Below are positions 7,472-16,880 of a stretch of DNA of 19,958 bases, piece after piece; within the stretch, counting starts at the first letter, position 1, and every line of letters starts with the position of its first letter. The notes below the pieces were generated by a model. The model did no database searches, was not told the DNA's origin, and worked only from the letters and a program-made list of their open reading frames with translations. The DNA is from an uncultured delta proteobacterium. Lineage in GTDB: Bacteria; RBG-13-61-14; DRUE01. The translations under genes and the position numbers were made by a program. The DNA lies in assembly GCA_903930515.1 (NCBI GenBank), contig CAIYYW010000117.1, positions 1 to 19,958 of the forward strand, written 5' to 3'.

Positions 7472-8596
7472 TTATAACTTGGGCATAATCTCCGAGATCT
7501 TGGTTTCTTTTTTCAGCTTGGAGACCAAGGCGGGCAGTTTTTTCATCAGCCGTTTATGCCCGCTGAATTTACCCTTCTCCAGCGCGTATCCGAAAATAAT
7601 CGGGACCGCGATGGTGGTATCGGAATAGACCACCACGCTGCTGGCGAGACGCTCGGGTTTGATCTTTCCCCAACTGATGGCCTCCTCGGGGGTGGCTCCG
7701 CTCAATCCGCCCCAGTGGGGGGAATCAATGGTGATCTGGATGTCGTAATCGTGCCCGGACACATCAATCCCGCATTGGATCCTGAGCATGGGCTGGGTCT
7801 GGAGGTAGAAGTTTTTGGGAGAGCCCCCGCCCACGATCACCACCCCGTTCTTTTGGGCCCCGTTCACAATCGCGCTGGTTTCCACCACATCCTGGATCGG
7901 GTCCAGGTCAAACTCAAACCCCTTGATCCGGACCAGGGCCAGGTTCATCCCGATTTCGGAATCGCCCGGAGAGCTGGTATAGATCGGAACATCATACTTG
8001 GCGGCAGTCGCCACCATACTGTTCTCCGGCTTCACCCCGTCTTCCAATAAGGCCTTGCCCAAGGCGTAATGAAATTCCGCGGTGCTCATTTTCTTCCCGG
8101 CCAAATCCTTGAGCACTTCCAACAGCCATACATCCGACCGGATGTTGACCTCCTCGGCCAGGAAAATGTCGTAAATCCGGTCAATATTTTTCTTGTTCAG
8201 GGCGCAATCGTCCACCCGGAAATGTCCCTGATACATCGGCAGCTCCAGCGCATACGCGAGGTCGTGGAAGACATTGGCGCCGGTGGCGATGATCCAGTCA
8301 ATGCCGCCTTTCTCAATCATCTGCGAGATCAATCCGCCCATCCCGGTGGGGGTCATTGCCCCGGCCAGGGTCAGGCCGATGGTGGCCTTTTCCTTGAGCA
8401 TCGTCTCATAAATCCGGCAGGCGGTGGCGATCCGGCCGGCCTGGAACGAGCCGGAATCGGCATACACCCCGACCAGGTCGGAAAATTTGGACCCGGCCGG
8501 AATCTTCAGCGCCTTTATCCTCCGGGCATGAATCGGAGGGGCCTGAAAGCTTTTCGGAATCCGGACCTGTTTCCATGCTTTTCTCTTCGGACTCAT
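7472..8596 (-). CDS. Deoxyhypusine-synthase-like protein, probably a homospermidine synthase
   Basis: The 374-residue protein has the NAD-binding fold and motifs of the DHS family: TLAGAMTPTGMG (76-87), IIATGANVFHDL (102-113), GGGSPKNF (256-263) and SGATPEEAISWGKI (299-312). Lys311 matches the lysine that carries the aminobutyl intermediate in human DHS (Lys329). The acidic pair of eukaryotic DHS in the GGVEED motif is replaced by VFHD, as in bacterial DHS-like proteins. Bacteria lack eIF5A, so hypusine formation is not expected. The family parallel is transfer of an aminobutyl group from spermidine to putrescine, giving homospermidine. The divergent neighbour is an ornithine-decarboxylase-type enzyme that would supply putrescine. 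The start is supported by GGGAG six bases upstream of ATG 8596. The substrate remains inference. Confidence 0.85.
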   Translation of the reverse strand: MSPKRKAWKQVRIPKSFQAPPIHARRIKALKIPAGSKFSDLVGVYADSGSFQAGRIATACRIYETMLKEKATIGLTLAGAMTPTGMGGLISQMIEKGGIDWIIATGANVFHDLAYALELPMYQGHFRVDDCALNKKNIDRIYDIFLAEEVNIRSDVWLLEVLKDLAGKKMSTAEFHYALGKALLEDGVKPENSMVATAAKYDVPIYTSSPGDSEIGMNLALVRIKGFEFDLDPIQDVVETSAIVNGAQKNGVVIVGGGSPKNFYLQTQPMLRIQCGIDVSGHDYDIQITIDSPHWGGLSGATPEEAISWGKIKPERLASSVVVYSDTTIAVPIIFGYALEKGKFSGHKRLMKKLPALVSKLKKETKISEIMPKL

Positions 8597-8740: not shown

Positions 8741-8778
8741 AAATCTGTTTTCAAATAAGGCGGCGAAGGAGAGAAAAG

Positions 8779-9921
8779 ATGTTGACCATAGAGCAGATGA
8801 AAAAGTCCTTGGAGGTTGACAAGCTGGAGACCCCGTGCCTGGTGTTGGACAAGCGGATCATCAAGCGCAAATACCAGGAGATCAAGAACAGCATTGCGGG
8901 GGTCAAGGTTTTTTACGCGGTCAAGGCCAATCCCGATATTGAGGTGTGCCGGTTCCTGAATGAGCTGGGATCCGGGTTTGAAGTGGCCTCGGTCAACGAG
9001 CTGAGGTTAGTCCTGGGCATCGGCGCCAGCGCGAAGAATGTGATCATCAGCAACATTTTAAAGCCGGTGGAATTTATCCGGGAGGCGCACCGGTCCGGGG
9101 TGGAATATTTCGCCTTTGACAGCGAGATGGAGGTTGACAAACTTTCGGAGCACGCCCCGGGGAGCAAGGTTTATCTCCGGATCGTGGTGGATAATACCGG
9201 GAGCGAGTGGCCGCTCTCGCGCAAGTTCGGGGCCGATCCCTCCATGGCGCTGGACCTGCTCCGCTACGCGCGTTCCTCGCGGGTCATCCCCTACGGGATC
9301 ACCTTCCATGTCGGGTCCCAGTGCATGAACCCGCTTAACTGGAGCAACGCCCTGATCACGGCCGCGGGAATTTTCCATCTGGCCAAAAAGAACGGGATTG
9401 ACTTGAAGCTGATCAACCTGGGCGGGGGAATCCCGGTCAAGCATTTGAAGAAGACCCCGAAGATTTCCGAGATCAAATACCAGATTGAAAAAAACCTGCG
9501 CGACGCTTTTTCCGATCATCCCGGTCTGGAGCTGATGATTGAGCCGGGGAGGGCAATGGTGGGGGACGCCGGGAATATCATCACCAAGGTGATCCTCAAG
9601 GCCGAGCGCGGCGCCGAGACCTGGCTCTATCTGGATGTCGGGGTGTTCAACGGCCTGATGGAAACCATAGAGGGGTTCACCTACGAACTGGTGAGCGAGA
9701 AGGAGATGTCCGGGTTCGTGGATAAAATGGAAATGATCCCATACACCGTTGCCGGACCGTCCTGCGACAGCGTGGACACAATGTTTGAGGGATATAAGCT
9801 GCCCAAGGACTTGACCCTCGGCGACCGCATCTACATCATCAACGCCGGCGCCTACACCCTTTCTTACGCCTCCCATTTCAACGGCCTGGAGCCGCCCCGG
9901 GTGTATTTTATTGAGAAGTGA
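8779..9921 (+). CDS. Ornithine/lysine/diaminopimelate-type decarboxylase of the alanine-racemase fold, likely ornithine decarboxylase
   Basis: This 380-residue enzyme belongs to fold-type III PLP decarboxylases. Lys49 in FYAVKAN forms the internal aldimine; HVGSQ (177-181), LGGGIP (214-219) and EPGR (255-258) bind PLP; GPSCDSVD (326-333) carries the Cys329-Asp330 pair that comes from the partner subunit of the dimer; AGAYT (356-360) is the C-terminal phosphate-side motif. The length fits the short eukaryotic-like ODC/LDC branch and not the longer arginine decarboxylase or DapA-linked forms. Ornithine as substrate, giving putrescine, is inferred from the divergent DHS-like gene; lysine or both are possible. 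The start is ATG 8779, with AAGGAG seven bases upstream. A longer frame begins at 8680 but its extra 33 residues are Arg-rich and overlap the promoter. Confidence 0.9.
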   Translation: MLTIEQMKKSLEVDKLETPCLVLDKRIIKRKYQEIKNSIAGVKVFYAVKANPDIEVCRFLNELGSGFEVASVNELRLVLGIGASAKNVIISNILKPVEFIREAHRSGVEYFAFDSEMEVDKLSEHAPGSKVYLRIVVDNTGSEWPLSRKFGADPSMALDLLRYARSSRVIPYGITFHVGSQCMNPLNWSNALITAAGIFHLAKKNGIDLKLINLGGGIPVKHLKKTPKISEIKYQIEKNLRDAFSDHPGLELMIEPGRAMVGDAGNIITKVILKAERGAETWLYLDVGVFNGLMETIEGFTYELVSEKEMSGFVDKMEMIPYTVAGPSCDSVDTMFEGYKLPKDLTLGDRIYIINAGAYTLSYASHFNGLEPPRVYFIEK

Positions 9922-10896: not shown

Positions 10897-11658
10897 ATGA
10901 GCTCAGGCGGAAAATTCAAGCCGGTGAAGCGGGAAGGTCTATCCGACCAGGTATATCAGGCCCTGCGCCGGCGGATCATCCAGGGAAAGATTAGGGCCGG
11001 GGAAAAATTGCCGGCCGAGCGGGAGCTGGCGCTGAGCTTCCAGGTCAACCGCGGCGCCATCCGCGAGGCCCTGAGCCGTCTGGAGGAGAACCGCCTGCTC
11101 AGCATCAAGCAAGGCTCCGGCGCCCTGGTCCTGGACTGGACCCAAAGCTTCCGTCTGGATTTTCTCGCCGACCTGCTCTGGGTAAACGGCAAGATCAATT
11201 TCCAGGCCTTCCGATCCGTGCTTGAGCTCCGCGAAATCCTGGGGCCCGAACTGGCCGGGTACGCGGCCAGGCGCGCGGGCAAGCGCGAAGTGAATCAGCT
11301 TCTGAAAATCGCTCAGGAATTGAAACAGGCCCGGGAGCAGCCGGAAAAATTCCAGCAACTTGAGTATCGCTTCAATCAAACTTTGGCAAGCGCGAGCGGT
11401 AATTTGGCGTTCCAGTTTCTGGTCAATTCCATCGGGAGCATCTATCTGAAAAACGCCCCGATCTTCCGGCTCGGAATCGCCCCGCTCTTGGATTCGGCCG
11501 GCAAATACCTGGAGGTCGCAAGGGCGGTCCAGGCCGGCAATGAAAAGAAATCAAGAAGACTGATCCGGGAACTGTTTAAAGAGTCCGGACGGGCGTTCTA
11601 TAAGTTGATTGAGAATGGGCGGAATCAAGCGCGCAAAGGAAACCGGACCGGTGGTTAA
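10897..11658 (+). CDS. GntR family transcriptional regulator, FadR (FCD) subfamily
   Basis: The 253-residue protein starts with a winged helix-turn-helix (about 14-80: LSDQVYQALRRRIIQG, then KLPAERELALSF and REALSRLEENRLL). An all-helical FCD effector domain (about 100-235) follows. In FCD proteins that bind a metal, an Asp and three His residues coordinate it and the motif usually reads DxxFH; here it reads EYRFNQTLASASGN, with His replaced by Asn, and few His are present. The ligand is therefore probably held without the metal, as in acyl-CoA-binding FadR. It is the first gene of the glycyl radical operon and has a matching palindrome at its own promoter. Autorepression relieved by the pathway substrate or product is the simplest reading. 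Start ATG 10897 follows a GGGGG run at five bases. Confidence 0.88.
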   Translation: MSSGGKFKPVKREGLSDQVYQALRRRIIQGKIRAGEKLPAERELALSFQVNRGAIREALSRLEENRLLSIKQGSGALVLDWTQSFRLDFLADLLWVNGKINFQAFRSVLELREILGPELAGYAARRAGKREVNQLLKIAQELKQAREQPEKFQQLEYRFNQTLASASGNLAFQFLVNSIGSIYLKNAPIFRLGIAPLLDSAGKYLEVARAVQAGNEKKSRRLIRELFKESGRAFYKLIENGRNQARKGNRTGG

Positions 11659-11702
11659 GTAATCTGCAAAGCCCTGACCTTTAAGTGCAAGGAGGATTGC
11701 AA

Positions 11703-14141
11703 ATGTCGGAAAATGTGCGGCTGCGGGATCCCGGCCGGGGTCTGGTGGAAGAGGTCTATGCTTTAAAGCTGGAGGGATTTCCGCGGGCGCAAAGGCTTCG
11801 GGAAGCGATTATGCAGGAGACACCGGCGGTGGGATTGGAGCGGTCGAGCCTGCTCACGGACTATTTTGAAAAGAACGGTTTTGATCTGGAGCATCCGCTT
11901 CTGCGCCAGGCCGACTCGCTCAAGTATGTGCTCGCGCATCTGACCCCGGCGATATTTCCGGAGGAGTTGATCGTGGGCGGCTGCACGGAGCACCGGCTGG
12001 GATGCGTGATGTTCCCGGAGTTCCAGGCGTCGCTGATCTGGCCGGAATTGATCCAGCTCCCGAGGCGGAAGCGCTGGCCGGTGAACATTTCCGAGCAGGC
12101 GATTGCGGAATACAGCTTCCGGATCTTTCCGTATTTCAAGGACAAGAACATCCACGAGTGGACCAAGAGACGCTTTGGGCGCCGCGAGAGCATCAGGCTG
12201 ATGGAGCGGATGGTGTTTTACCTGATCGCGCTCCCGAACGGGGTGTCTCATTTGATCCCGAACTATCCGATCGCGGTTCGGCTGGGCTTCAACCGGATCA
12301 TGGAAATGGCGGGTGAAAAGAAAAAGGCGGTCACCGGGAAGGGCAAGGACGCGGATGCGCCGCGGGAATTTTACCGGGCGGTTGAGACGGTTTCGGAAGG
12401 GGTGATCAAGTTCGCGATCAACCATTCGCTCAAGTGCCTGAAGCTGGCGGAAAAGGAGCCGAACCCGGAGCGGAAGCGGGAGCTGGTGGGGATTTCCAAA
12501 ATTTTGGGCCGGGTCCCGGCCGAGCCGGCTCGGACCTTTTGGGAAGCTTTGCAAAGCCTCTGGATAACGCACTTGGCGGTTTTGCAGGAGAACTCCGATT
12601 TGGCCGTGAGCTTCGGGAGGATGGACCAGTTGCTGCTCCCCTATTTTGAGCGGGATCTGGCCGAGGGAAGGGTTGATCTGAGCAAGGCGATGGAGCTTCT
12701 GATGTGCCTCTACATCAAGACCAACGACCACACCCCTTTGGTCCCGGCAATGGGAGAGGCGCTCTTCAGCGGGAGCGCCACCAACCAGTCCATCACCCTG
12801 AGCGGGGTTGATCCGGATGGGAAGGACTGCACCAATCTCCTGAGCTATATGATGGTCAAGGCGCTGGATTTGCTCCGGCTCCGGGAGCCGAATGTGGACG
12901 CGAGATTCCATAGAGCCTCTCCGGAACTATGGTATGAGAAGGTTTTGGAATCGGTCCGGTCCACCGGGGCCGCGCCCGCGCTTTACAATGACGATGCGAT
13001 CGTGCCGGCGCTGGTGAGCAAGGGCTTGAAGGTGGAAGACGCTCGGGATTACGGCGTGATCGGCTGCGTTGAAACCCAGGTCCAGGGCAAGTCCTATCCG
13101 ATGACCGGGGCCATCCTGCTCAATATCGCGGCGATCCTGGAACTGTCGCTCAACAACGGCATCCATCCCTTTTCCGGACTTCCGGTCGGACCGGAGACCG
13201 GGTATTTGCGCGACTTTCAAAATTTTGATCAGGTCTGGGGCGCGTTCCAAACCCAGTTGCAGGCGATGGCGGACCAGTCGGTTGACGCGGAGACCGCCTA
13301 CGACCAGGCGCATCAGGAGCTGCATCCGATCCCGCTGCTCAGCGCGCTGATTGAGGGGCCGATGGAAAAGGGGAAGGATTTGACCGAGGGCGGCGCGCTA
13401 TATAATTCCAGCGGGGTCTGGGTGGTCGGGCTTGCGGATGTAACGGATTCGCTCGCCAGCCTCAAGAAGCTGGTGTTTGAGGAAAAACGGGTGAGCGCGA
13501 AAGGGATGGAGGACGCGCTTAAAGCGGATTTCAAGGGGTTTGAAAAAATCCAGGCGCTGTGTTTAAGCCGCGCCCCCAAATACGGGAACGATGACCCGGA
13601 GGCCGACGATCTTGCGGTAAAGGTTGTGGACGCGATTGACCGGGCGTATGGGAAACACCTGAACTACCGGGGCGGTCCGTACCAGGCCGGTTTTTGGACC
13701 ATGACCATGCATACCGGATACGGAAGAGCCACCAGCGCCTTCCCGAGCGGAAGAAAATCCGGGGCCTCGCTCGCGAGCGGAGCCACGCCGGTGAGCGGGG
13801 CAAGCCGCAAAGGCCCGAGCGCCGCGCTCTCCTCCACGGCCAAGCTCCCGGCCTGCGGGTTGGCCAACAGCATCGCCAACAACCACAAGATTCCAGCCGG
13901 CCTGTTGCAGGAGCCGGGAAAGATCAAGGTCCTGCAGCAACTGGTCAGGGGCTTTTTCCAAAAAGGCGGGCTCCAGGTACAATTCGTGATCGCGGACAAG
14001 AAGATGTTGGTGGACGCGATCAATAATCCGGAGCTGGCCAAGGACCTGCTGGTCCGGGTGAGCGGATACACCGCTTATTTCGGGGACCTGAACCGGGCGA
14101 TGCAGGAGGAGATCGTTAACCGGACCGAGGATATAATTTAA
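11703..14141 (+). CDS. Glycyl radical enzyme of the dehydratase/lyase type, substrate unknown
   Basis: The 812-residue protein is a full-length PFL-fold enzyme. The C-terminal RVSGYTAYF motif holds the glycyl radical at Gly788, 24 residues from the end. The thiyl Cys455 lies in IGCVETQVQGK with Glu457 two residues on, the Cys-x-Glu arrangement of glycyl radical dehydratases, lyases and decarboxylases; pyruvate formate-lyase has Cys-Cys. Other family landmarks are ELIVGG (near 87), GRMDQ, KYGNDDPEADD and the P-SGRKSG loop. The GCVET, LELSLNNG and KYGNDD stretches recall hydroxyproline dehydratase from memory, but the pocket region differs, so the reaction is not assigned. Start ATG 11703 has AAGGAGG seven bases upstream. 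There is no N-terminal microcompartment-targeting extension and no shell genes. Its activase is encoded four genes on. Confidence 0.93.
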   Translation: MSENVRLRDPGRGLVEEVYALKLEGFPRAQRLREAIMQETPAVGLERSSLLTDYFEKNGFDLEHPLLRQADSLKYVLAHLTPAIFPEELIVGGCTEHRLGCVMFPEFQASLIWPELIQLPRRKRWPVNISEQAIAEYSFRIFPYFKDKNIHEWTKRRFGRRESIRLMERMVFYLIALPNGVSHLIPNYPIAVRLGFNRIMEMAGEKKKAVTGKGKDADAPREFYRAVETVSEGVIKFAINHSLKCLKLAEKEPNPERKRELVGISKILGRVPAEPARTFWEALQSLWITHLAVLQENSDLAVSFGRMDQLLLPYFERDLAEGRVDLSKAMELLMCLYIKTNDHTPLVPAMGEALFSGSATNQSITLSGVDPDGKDCTNLLSYMMVKALDLLRLREPNVDARFHRASPELWYEKVLESVRSTGAAPALYNDDAIVPALVSKGLKVEDARDYGVIGCVETQVQGKSYPMTGAILLNIAAILELSLNNGIHPFSGLPVGPETGYLRDFQNFDQVWGAFQTQLQAMADQSVDAETAYDQAHQELHPIPLLSALIEGPMEKGKDLTEGGALYNSSGVWVVGLADVTDSLASLKKLVFEEKRVSAKGMEDALKADFKGFEKIQALCLSRAPKYGNDDPEADDLAVKVVDAIDRAYGKHLNYRGGPYQAGFWTMTMHTGYGRATSAFPSGRKSGASLASGATPVSGASRKGPSAALSSTAKLPACGLANSIANNHKIPAGLLQEPGKIKVLQQLVRGFFQKGGLQVQFVIADKKMLVDAINNPELAKDLLVRVSGYTAYFGDLNRAMQEEIVNRTEDII

Positions 14142-14153
14142 ATGGAGACGGGA

Positions 14154-15470
14154 ATGAGAATAAAATATTTACTGCTCGCGCTCGCCGTTCTGATCGCGGG
14201 TCCGGCCGGAAGGGCGCAGGCCGCGCCGGAAAGATTTTCGGTTGACTATTTTGGTTACCCGGTCAATTTCACCTGCTCCGCGATCCCCTCGGGGCATCCG
14301 GCGAAAAGCTTTGAAAAGCTGATCCAAAAGGACTTGGCCGAGCTTGGGAACTGCCCGGACGCGTTGTCGCAACTCTCGCAACAGCTTGGGTTCCAGAATC
14401 ACCATTACGGCCGGATCCTTCTGTTCTGGAAATTCGCGGAGACTTTCACGGGACCGAGGACCGCGAAAGGATGGGTCTCGTTCGCGGAGGCCGTCTCCGG
14501 CAGGAAAATGGGACGCAATGATAGGATCGCCCTGATTTACGCGCTCCTGGTCAAGGCCGGGTATGGCGGCCGGATCGTGGAAGACCGGACGGAATATTAT
14601 ATCCTGCTCCAGGTCCAGGACAGTTTGGCGGGTATTTATTTCAAGGGGTATCAGGCCTACCGGATTTGGGAGCCGGGATACCCGTTTGAGGAAATCCCGG
14701 CCGGTAAAATTTCTCCGACCTTGAACTTCCCGGAGATTTTTCATAACGGAGCCCCGGTGAGTTTTGACACCCTGGGATCGGTTCCCTGGAACCAGACCCG
14801 GAAGGGGTCGGAGGTCAAATTTAAAAGTCCGGAAGCATGCCCGGTGACCTGGAATTTCAGCCGGGAGCGGCTCCCGGGCTACGAGGAATACTTGAAGTTC
14901 TGGCCCCGCAAAAGGGAAATCCAGGCGCTGGTTTCCGACGAAATTTTCGCCCCGTTCAATCTGTCCGGGAAATTTAATCCGGGTAAAAATTATGAAGTTC
15001 AGGAGCTGAGCGACGCTCAGTTCGGGAATTGCCTGTTCAAATGGGTGCGGCTCAATGCCCCTTATGCCACCGGCCGGCAAAACCCGCGCAACCCGGTGGA
15101 AACAATTTTTCGGGACCGGAAGGGCGACTGCGACGAGCTGTCTTTTTCCCTGCTCGCGGTTTTGCGCGAGGCCGGGTATCCGGCGGATGATATCCGGATG
15201 GCGGTCTGGCCCAAGCATATGACCCTGGCGGTGGCGCCTTTGAGCGAGCCCGGCCCGGACAGTTACCTGAGCGCGAAGACCAAGTGCAGTTTTTTGGAAG
15301 CCGGGAAGGAATTTTATGTGATGGACACCTCGTATCTGTGCAAGGAAAAAACTCCGGAGGGGAAGATCCTCAGCATTCCGGAAGATCAATGCTGGATCAA
15401 ATGGGGGATGTGCAGTTACGATGTTTTGGGCGGGCAAAAATTTATTTCCCAGCCGGTGGAAAGGGAATGA
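14154..15470 (+). CDS. Exported transglutaminase-like protein with a degenerate first repeat
   Basis: From ATG 14154 (GGAG six bases upstream) the product is 438 residues with a clear signal peptide (1-23, MRIKYLLLALAVLIAG, cleavage near AQA-A). An ATG at 14142, directly after the previous stop codon, would add four residues. The C-terminal half has the transglutaminase/protease-like triad Cys326 (DRKGDCDELSFSLLAVL), His355 (WPKHMTLAV) and Asp391 (FYVMDTS). Residues 117-137 (RKMGRNDRIALIYALLVKAGY) align without gaps to 322-342, with Arg121 in place of the Cys, so the first half looks like an inactive copy. Members cross-link, hydrolyse or amidate peptides. Its place between the glycyl radical enzyme and its activase is unexplained: it may process a peptide-linked substrate outside the cytoplasm. 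Confidence 0.78.
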   Translation: MRIKYLLLALAVLIAGPAGRAQAAPERFSVDYFGYPVNFTCSAIPSGHPAKSFEKLIQKDLAELGNCPDALSQLSQQLGFQNHHYGRILLFWKFAETFTGPRTAKGWVSFAEAVSGRKMGRNDRIALIYALLVKAGYGGRIVEDRTEYYILLQVQDSLAGIYFKGYQAYRIWEPGYPFEEIPAGKISPTLNFPEIFHNGAPVSFDTLGSVPWNQTRKGSEVKFKSPEACPVTWNFSRERLPGYEEYLKFWPRKREIQALVSDEIFAPFNLSGKFNPGKNYEVQELSDAQFGNCLFKWVRLNAPYATGRQNPRNPVETIFRDRKGDCDELSFSLLAVLREAGYPADDIRMAVWPKHMTLAVAPLSEPGPDSYLSAKTKCSFLEAGKEFYVMDTSYLCKEKTPEGKILSIPEDQCWIKWGMCSYDVLGGQKFISQPVERE

Positions 15471-15941: not shown

Positions 15942-16880
15942 ATGCCAACGGTTGAAGAAAAAACAGCGGCGCTGGTCTCGGACCTCCAGCGGTTTTCCAT
16001 CCACGACGGGCCCGGCATCCGGACCACGGTTTTTTTCAAGGGATGTACCTTGCGCTGCCAATGGTGCCAGAACCCGGAGACCCTGAAATTTGAAAACGAG
16101 CTGGTCTTTTCATCGGAGCGGTGCATCGCCTGCGGGGACTGCGCGAAAAATTGCCCGAACCATGCGATCAAGTTTGATCACGGTCCACATATTGAATTCA
16201 GCGTCTGCAAGAACTGCTTCACCTGCGCGGATGCCTGCCCGAGCCGGGCGCTAGAGCCGGCCGGGAAAGAATACGGCGCAGAGGCGCTCGCAACCGAGCT
16301 GTTGAAAGACCGGGAATTTTATCAGCCGGAAGGCGGGGTCACTTTAAGCGGGGGCGAGCCGTTTTCGCAGGCGAAATTTTTGCTGGAGCTGCTGCCGATT
16401 TTGAAGCGCGAGAAAATACATATTACAGCCGAGACCTGCGGTCATTTCAATTATGAGGCGGTTTTGCCCAGCCTCAAGATGGTGGACCTGATCCTGTTTG
16501 ATCTGAAAGCGCTTAACCCGGATTTGCATCAACGCCTGACCGGAAAGGATAATGAGTTGATCCTGAAAAACCTCCGCCGGATCCTTGACCTGAAAATCCC
16601 GCATCAAATCCGGATGCCCCTGATCCCGGGATTGAACGATCAGGAATCAGAATTGAAAGGGATCGCGGAATTCTTGAAATCGCTCGGCGAACCCGAACTC
16701 TGGCTTTTGCCCTATCACCGGCTGGGAGAGAGCAAGCTGAAAAAACTCAACACCGAGATGAAACCGCTCGGCCTGAAGAGCTACTCCGAAAAAGACCTGC
16801 GCTCCAAGGCCGGGATCGTCGCCGCTTGCGGCATCACCGCGCGGACCTTCAACTTCAGCGTTCCGCCCTCAACCTTTTAA
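15942..16880 (+). CDS. Glycyl radical enzyme activating enzyme (radical SAM activase)
   Basis: The 312-residue protein matches the PFL-activase family with an extra ferredoxin-like insert. The radical SAM CxxxCxxC is Cys35, Cys39 and Cys42 (KGCTLRCQWC), preceded by the family signature FSIHDGPGIRTTVF. Two four-cysteine clusters follow: Cys61-64-67-71 and Cys89-92-95-99. The SAM-binding GGEP is at 137-140. Two-cluster activases go with glycyl radical dehydratases, lyases and decarboxylases and not with pyruvate formate-lyase, whose activase lacks them; this agrees with the Cys-x-Glu site of the enzyme at 11703. It abstracts the hydrogen from Gly788 of that enzyme. It begins 11 bases after the SCP2-like gene with only a weak purine run before the ATG, so translation is probably coupled. 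No terminator is visible after it. Confidence 0.95.
   Translation: MPTVEEKTAALVSDLQRFSIHDGPGIRTTVFFKGCTLRCQWCQNPETLKFENELVFSSERCIACGDCAKNCPNHAIKFDHGPHIEFSVCKNCFTCADACPSRALEPAGKEYGAEALATELLKDREFYQPEGGVTLSGGEPFSQAKFLLELLPILKREKIHITAETCGHFNYEAVLPSLKMVDLILFDLKALNPDLHQRLTGKDNELILKNLRRILDLKIPHQIRMPLIPGLNDQESELKGIAEFLKSLGEPELWLLPYHRLGESKLKKLNTEMKPLGLKSYSEKDLRSKAGIVAACGITARTFNFSVPPSTF

Follow-up and report, generated by a model that had tools for sequence, protein, structure and literature searches.

Introduction

The eliminases among the glycyl radical enzymes (GREs) act, to our knowledge, on small water-soluble substrates, and the accessory subunits that we know of in GREs are small iron-sulphur proteins. 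Such small subunits accompany arylacetate decarboxylase (HPAD) and benzylsuccinate synthase (BSS). We know of no SCP2 (sterol-carrier-fold) partner for the glycerol and propanediol dehydratases. Outside the GREs, the SCP2 domains of MFE-2 and of alkylsulfatases are thought to bind or present the hydrophobic substrate.

A Cys-x-Glu (CxE) motif is the mark of the eliminases, and in hydroxyproline dehydratase (HypD) the residues that bind hydroxyproline (Hyp) have been defined by structure and mutagenesis as D278, S334, D339, F340, Y450 and T645 (PMC7077986). Alkane activation of a PflD type has been proposed for Archaeoglobus PflD and for the 'assA' genes of the phylum considered here (PMC8163825, PMC13170169), and Ass/Bss calls resting on PflD-like enzymes have been published for Hermodarchaeota (PMC8163825); another study separated PflD-like genes from the true fumarate-adding enzymes (PMC6776118). 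Anaerobic routes for C-O cleavage in lipids are poorly known.

Here we analyse a stretch of 19,958 nucleotides (the window) in contig 117 of a 3.65 Mb draft genome of 401 contigs, from an uncultured bacterium of the RBG-13-61-14 lineage. It encodes a GRE belonging to a previously undescribed branch in which an SCP2-like domain is found beside the enzyme or fused to it.

Results

The operon and its two intact radical proteins

The GRE reading frame (11685-14141, plus strand) could begin at a GTG at 11685, but a ribosome-binding site, AAGGAGGATTGCAAATG, favours the ATG at 11703 (Table 1). Counted from that ATG, the active-site residues carry exactly the numbers Cys455, Glu457 and Gly788 under which the earlier note had described an intact enzyme, and the protein is covered by the Pfam families PFL-like (PF02901, 616.7 bits, E 8e-185) and Gly_radical (PF01228, 81.0 bits). 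An AlphaFold model with the enzyme's own clade as input (pLDDT 88.9, pTM 0.91) can be overlaid on solved GREs with 770-780 residues matched at 1.7-1.8 Å, far beyond chance. With a PFL-like barrel, a glycyl radical loop, a single Cys-x-Glu and an activase of its own, the enzyme is of the eliminase (PFL2/dehydratase) type. The activase is likewise intact, scoring above the cut-off of TIGR02494 (313.8 bits) and below those of the substrate-specific activase models.

Table 1. Features of the window, with selected codons of the GRE numbered from the ATG at 11703
Feature	Position	Strand	Basis
Deoxyhypusine-synthase-like protein	7472-8596	-	homospermidine biosynthesis model, 408 bits (cut-off 450)
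Ornithine/diaminopimelate-decarboxylase-like protein	8773-9921	+	
GntR/FadR-type regulator	10897..11658	+	Pfam GntR, FCD, FadR_C
Glycyl radical enzyme (GRE), 812 aa	11703..14141	+	Pfam PF02901 and PF01228, residue numbering, ribosome-binding site, AlphaFold model
GRE His183 codon	12249-12251	+	
GRE Cys455 codon	13065-13067	+	
GRE Glu457 codon	13071-13073	+	
GRE radical Gly788 codon	14064-14066	+	
Transglutaminase-core protein, begins directly after the GRE stop	14142..15470	+	Pfam Transglut_core
SCP2-like (sterol-carrier-fold) protein, 146 aa	15490..15930	+	sequence, weak Pfam SCP2 match, model fold, kept beside or fused to clade GREs
Radical-SAM glycyl-radical activase with two ferredoxin-type [4Fe-4S] motifs	15942..16880	+	TIGR02494

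The genes of the operon run from the regulator through the GRE, the transglutaminase-core protein and the SCP2-like protein to the activase. The regulator, which also lies upstream of the GRE in the related genome G001 (67%), probably controls the operon. Farther upstream, the deoxyhypusine-synthase-like and decarboxylase-like genes diverge from one another and, judged by sequence, are probably a bacterial polyamine pair.

The gene between the transglutaminase-core gene and the activase has a ribosome-binding site, AAAGGAGAGCGGAGA, before its ATG. Its product scores 16.4 bits (E 0.012) against Pfam PF02036, under the gathering score of 21.3, and we therefore call it SCP2-like and do not file it as a member of the family. 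Its fold is nonetheless that of SCP2: an AlphaFold model that drew on 15 relatives (pLDDT 80.9) matches UbiJ-SCP2 with a Foldseek E of 5.3e-7 and human SCP-2L with Z 10.3 (110 residues at 2.7 Å), with the SCP2 domains of the alkylsulfatases SdsA1 and Pisa1 close behind. The earlier note had passed over this gene, which is both the marker of the family and the main clue to the substrate.

SCP2-linked enzymes fall into a single clade

An SCP2-like gene comes just after the GRE in all three sampled genomes of the phylum, with one gene between them in two. G001 (a 76% relative) repeats the order seen in the window, namely GRE, transglutaminase, SCP2 and activase, and G002 (a 71% relative) has GRE, SCP2 and activase; both keep the activase close to the GRE. 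The transglutaminase-core gene, present between the GRE and SCP2-like genes in the window genome and G001 (locus L013) only, is absent from G002 (L014) and so probably stands outside the core system. In the phylum of G003, a metagenome-assembled genome labelled Deltaproteobacteria, GREs of ~40% identity have an SCP2 gene directly downstream, and in other GREs, of ~985-1020 aa, the SCP2 domain makes up the N-terminus (residues ~1-150). Scanning 395 genomes of G003's phylum with an SCP2 profile gave matches in 43, nearly all of them within or beside such a GRE, and a wider sample contained SCP2-linked GREs outside that phylum as well. Because the same domain recurs across the clade as an adjacent gene or an N-terminal fusion, we rule out that the SCP2-like reading frame is unrelated to the GRE.

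As exceptions, L066 (G072) and L067 (G175) have orphan SCP2-like genes that match the same profile, and L069 (G007) an SCP2-like gene with an activase, in each case with no GRE within the stretch read. The clade-type GRE of L077 (4450-7038, G149) is broken by one in-frame TAG, its SCP2 and activase genes being intact, and a GMC-type oxidoreductase lookalike lies upstream of it. In L006 (2343-4165, a 69% relative) the GRE is broken into two frames at ~2909 and is cut off by the end of the contig. A LutA-like gene on the same strand precedes it by 37 bases, and a LutB-like gene is transcribed divergently.

We placed 49 GREs in a tree, 36 of them SCP2-linked (18 by an adjacent gene, 18 by fusion). 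Outside these were HypD, CutC, glycerol dehydratase (GDH), YbiW, AfPFL2 (Archaeoglobus fulgidus PflD), a Moraxella and a Chloroflexota plasmid GRE, three other GREs of the window genome, the second GRE of G003, L060 and L072. All 36 SCP2-linked enzymes, from several phyla and including that of the window, are united in one clade (ultrafast bootstrap 100, SH-aLRT 100), its limits being those seen within a collection sampled by similarity to the window. The 18 fused enzymes group in a single subclade (100/100), and one change on the tree suffices for the SCP2 label and another for fusion. Among the outside GREs with readable flanks (300 bases for CutC and YbiW; GDH and AfPFL2 excluded) no SCP2 homologue was found. 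Neither L060 (37%) nor L072 (39%) has an SCP2 gene in its vicinity, and both lie outside the clade, whose boundary is thus not a matter of percent identity alone. The nearest outgroup is L072, with weak support, and AfPFL2 is also among the nearest.

As for the outside enzymes themselves, the GRE of L072 (7823-10261, G421) lies near lookalikes of 2-oxoacid:ferredoxin oxidoreductase genes, with neither SCP2 nor activase gene nearby. The three further GREs of the window genome, on contigs 184, 260 and 377 (L015, L017 and L016), sit on other branches, and that of contig 260 is followed by what looks by eye like a creatininase.

We found nothing on a GRE-SCP2 pairing in the literature searched, which is weak evidence given that subscription papers were mostly not covered, and searches on ether lipids and on SCP2 plus GRE returned nothing linking the two.

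The pocket departs from those of known families

The GRE scores 617 bits against the broad NCBIfam family PFL2-3 (cut-off 678) and lies far under the cut-off of every NCBIfam equivalog, sulfopropanediol dehydratase included (454 of 1000 bits). Classical pyruvate formate-lyase can be set aside, as the window enzyme has a single Cys (GCVE) where that family has two adjacent cysteines, and scores 164 against 994 bits for TIGR01255. Sequence identity is 35% to AfPFL2, 34% to GDH, 31% to CutC and 29% to HypD. In superpositions of the model, AfPFL2, GDH and the propanediol dehydratases are tied (Z 48.0-49.0), followed by CutC (47.3) and HypD (46.8), with the succinate synthases at about 40.

HypD thus ranks below AfPFL2 and GDH in both sequence and structure, contrary to the special resemblance proposed in the earlier note. 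The LELSLNNG and KYGNDD stretches cited there are present in the GRE, but similar ones occur in AfPFL2 and CutC, and they are therefore not special to HypD. The idea that the enzyme is a HypD or a close variant of one has on its side the common fold, the CxE motif, the equivalents of H160 (His183 here) and Glu436 (HypD structure 6vxc), and an activase whose best equivalog is the HypD activase model, albeit under its cut-off (296 of 425 bits). Against this, the identity is half or less of the ~60% that was to support the function if the proline-binding residues were kept, the score for NF043068 is 486.2 against a cut-off of 1100 bits, and all six Hyp-binding residues are replaced, D278, S334, D339, F340, Y450 and T645 aligning with L300, F355, T360, N361, L472 and M667 (here and below, alignment may misplace single positions by one or two columns). 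Nor was a proC-type gene seen nearby, in agreement with the earlier note; that family was matched by none of the scanned genes of the window. We regard an identity with HypD as already refuted, leaving it scarcely any credence.

If the enzyme dehydrated a short, soluble vicinal diol such as glycerol or propanediol, with the SCP2 linkage incidental, this would account for the closeness of the B12-independent glycerol and 1,2-propanediol dehydratases (1r8w, 5i2a, 9rco), which share the CxE motif and are among the best structural matches (Z 48-48.7; 48.7 and 48.6 for glycerol and propanediol dehydratase). However, of H164, H281, S282, E435 and D447, which we take from the GDH structure to be its polyol-binding residues, only H164 (His183 here) and E435 have retained equivalents; H281 aligns with Leu, S282 with Ala, Y339 with Asn and D447 with Gly469 or Thr468. 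An incidental linkage also sits badly with its presence in 36 of 36 clade members, and we consider a short-diol dehydratase improbable.

CutC has the fold, the CxE motif and the equivalents of T502 and F389 in common with the window GRE. Of the residues that presumably line its pocket (D216, Y208, F395, Y506 and T502), T502 alone is kept, D216 being replaced by His, Y208 by Ala, F395 by Asn and Y506 by Leu, and the TIGR04394 score is 470.6 of 1050 bits. Full conservation of one known pocket, the outcome named in the earlier note as telling against a new specificity, is therefore absent for HypD, GDH and CutC alike and, with the equivalog scores, this supports its reading of an eliminase-branch enzyme whose specificity corresponds to no characterised subfamily.

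Within the clade, His183, Glu457, Gly788 and Trp665 are constant in all 36 members and Phe355 in 35, and Cys455 is invariant in a 22-member alignment. Position 468 is Thr or Ser (Asn in one member) and positions 300, 361 and 469 vary, so substrates may differ among members. On these alignments the clade appears to keep the hydroxyl-handling His-Glu pair of the eliminases and to have lost the polyol- and proline-binding residues.

Genomic surroundings give hints of lipid metabolism

Among the fused members, seven loci (L057, L058, L079, L080, L082, L084 and L085) have a TetR-type regulator close to the GRE; acyl-CoA (FadD-type) ligases occur in L058, L079, L084 and more weakly L082, and kinases for glycerol or related sugars in L058, L084, L076 and L092. 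Two fused loci from two genomes (L071 and L083) have a beta-oxidation operon of SDR, GRE, SDR, thiolase and FadB. A regulator weakly similar to the FadR type of the window and G001 lies directly upstream of the fused GRE of L070. As related genomes account for several of these loci, the counts are not independent; we read them as hints of lipid metabolism, not as proof.

The adjacent-gene members have other neighbours: a calcineurin-like phosphoesterase (metallophosphatase) upstream in some, DUF6765 with a duplicated protein in others. By eye, DUF6765 had looked like a zinc phospholipase C or S1-P1 type enzyme, an assignment that a profile search of solved structures did not support. The duplicated protein is seen as a single copy of ~320 aa or a tandem duplicate of 620-820 aa (L047 10595-12507, L048 4260-6728, L074 15198-17345), with no match in Pfam or among PDB sequences.

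Discussion

We propose the SCP2-like protein as a putative partner subunit or substrate carrier of the GRE. On balance, the GRE probably serves as catalytic subunit in a radical eliminase of two components, its SCP2 partner presenting a lipid-like hydroxylated substrate. The SCP2 fold, its linkage to every clade member, the invariant CxE and His183, the structural closeness to AfPFL2 and the glycerol and propanediol dehydratases, and the lipid-type context all speak for it. Since the partner is proposed to present a hydrophobic substrate, a lipid-like alcohol or diol is to be expected; a long-chain 1,2-diol or a 1-O-alkylglycerol, with products entering acyl-CoA metabolism, is the most concrete, if speculative, guess at its identity. 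In such a reaction the activase would generate the Gly788 radical, which would move to Cys455, and the resulting thiyl radical would take a hydrogen from the carbon bearing or adjoining a hydroxyl. Glu457 and His183 would then manage the hydroxyl proton as the neighbouring OH or OR departs. The SCP2-like protein, which may associate physically with the GRE, would bind the substrate's hydrophobic portion, or pull the substrate from membranes, and hand it over.

Some observations run against a lipid eliminase. The adjacent-gene branch has the metallophosphatase, DUF6765 and duplicated-protein genes instead of fatty-acid genes; LutA/LutB-like genes lie by the 69% relative in G003; and in the window, apart from the SCP2 gene, lipids are hinted at only by the FadR-type regulator, while FCD regulators sense organic acids too. 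SCP2-fold proteins, moreover, need not bind substrate. The partner could instead be structural or regulatory, serving in radical protection, activase docking or as a scaffold for a GRE with an ordinary, soluble substrate. Small accessory subunits have precedents in HPAD and BSS, the closest fold match, UbiJ, works in a protein complex, and the clade's context is not lipid-related throughout. The known GRE subunits, though, have other folds, where SCP2 domains are attached to enzymes (MFE-2, SdsA1-type alkylsulfatases) the pathway is one of lipid or alkyl metabolism, and the fused members repeatedly have lipid genes close by; we therefore think a structural role unlikely.

The clade is marked by a lipid-carrier partner, and the fusion makes this link difficult to discount. 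It suggests a radical chemistry that acts on lipids, with anaerobic bacteria applying GRE chemistry to fatty or other oily molecules. More tentatively, and with less confidence than in the two-component eliminase itself, this may be a widespread, undescribed subfamily whose SCP2 subunit or domain brings membrane lipids (long-chain diols, alkylglycerol ethers and the like) to C-O cleavage. If true, anaerobes would gain an oxygen-free means of breaking down recalcitrant lipids. The SCP2 partner thus raises the significance of the GRE and yields a lipid hypothesis that can be tested.

Comparison with known systems

The nearest solved structure is AfPFL2 (2f3o; Z 49.0, rmsd 1.8 Å over 771 residues), which has the GCVE motif in common with the window GRE, lies just outside the 100/100 clade and has itself a putative function. 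This proximity, and the assA gene reported from an RBG-13-61-14 genome (PMC13170169), could suggest a PflD-type, fumarate-adding enzyme of alkane activation. An X-succinate synthase (BssA/AssA/MasD) is nevertheless at odds with the locus: the activase scores 196.5 bits against the 496-bit cut-off of the BssD-type model TIGR04003, the operon showed no gene for a BssB/BssC-like subunit, its sole small gene being the SCP2-like one, sequence and structure are nearer the eliminases than BssA or MasD, and CxE is an eliminase mark (PMC7077986). We hold alkane activation to be very improbable, less credible even than the short-diol dehydratase, and urge caution in metagenome work that names PflD-like GREs 'assA' alkane-degradation genes, including the one report from this phylum.

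The eliminase with a lipid-presenting partner that we favour has its counterpart outside the GREs. The SdsA1/Pisa1 alkylsulfatases and MFE-2, enzymes of lipid or alkyl metabolism, likewise have a catalytic domain paired with or fused to an SCP2 fold, and their catalytic domains are unrelated to GREs.
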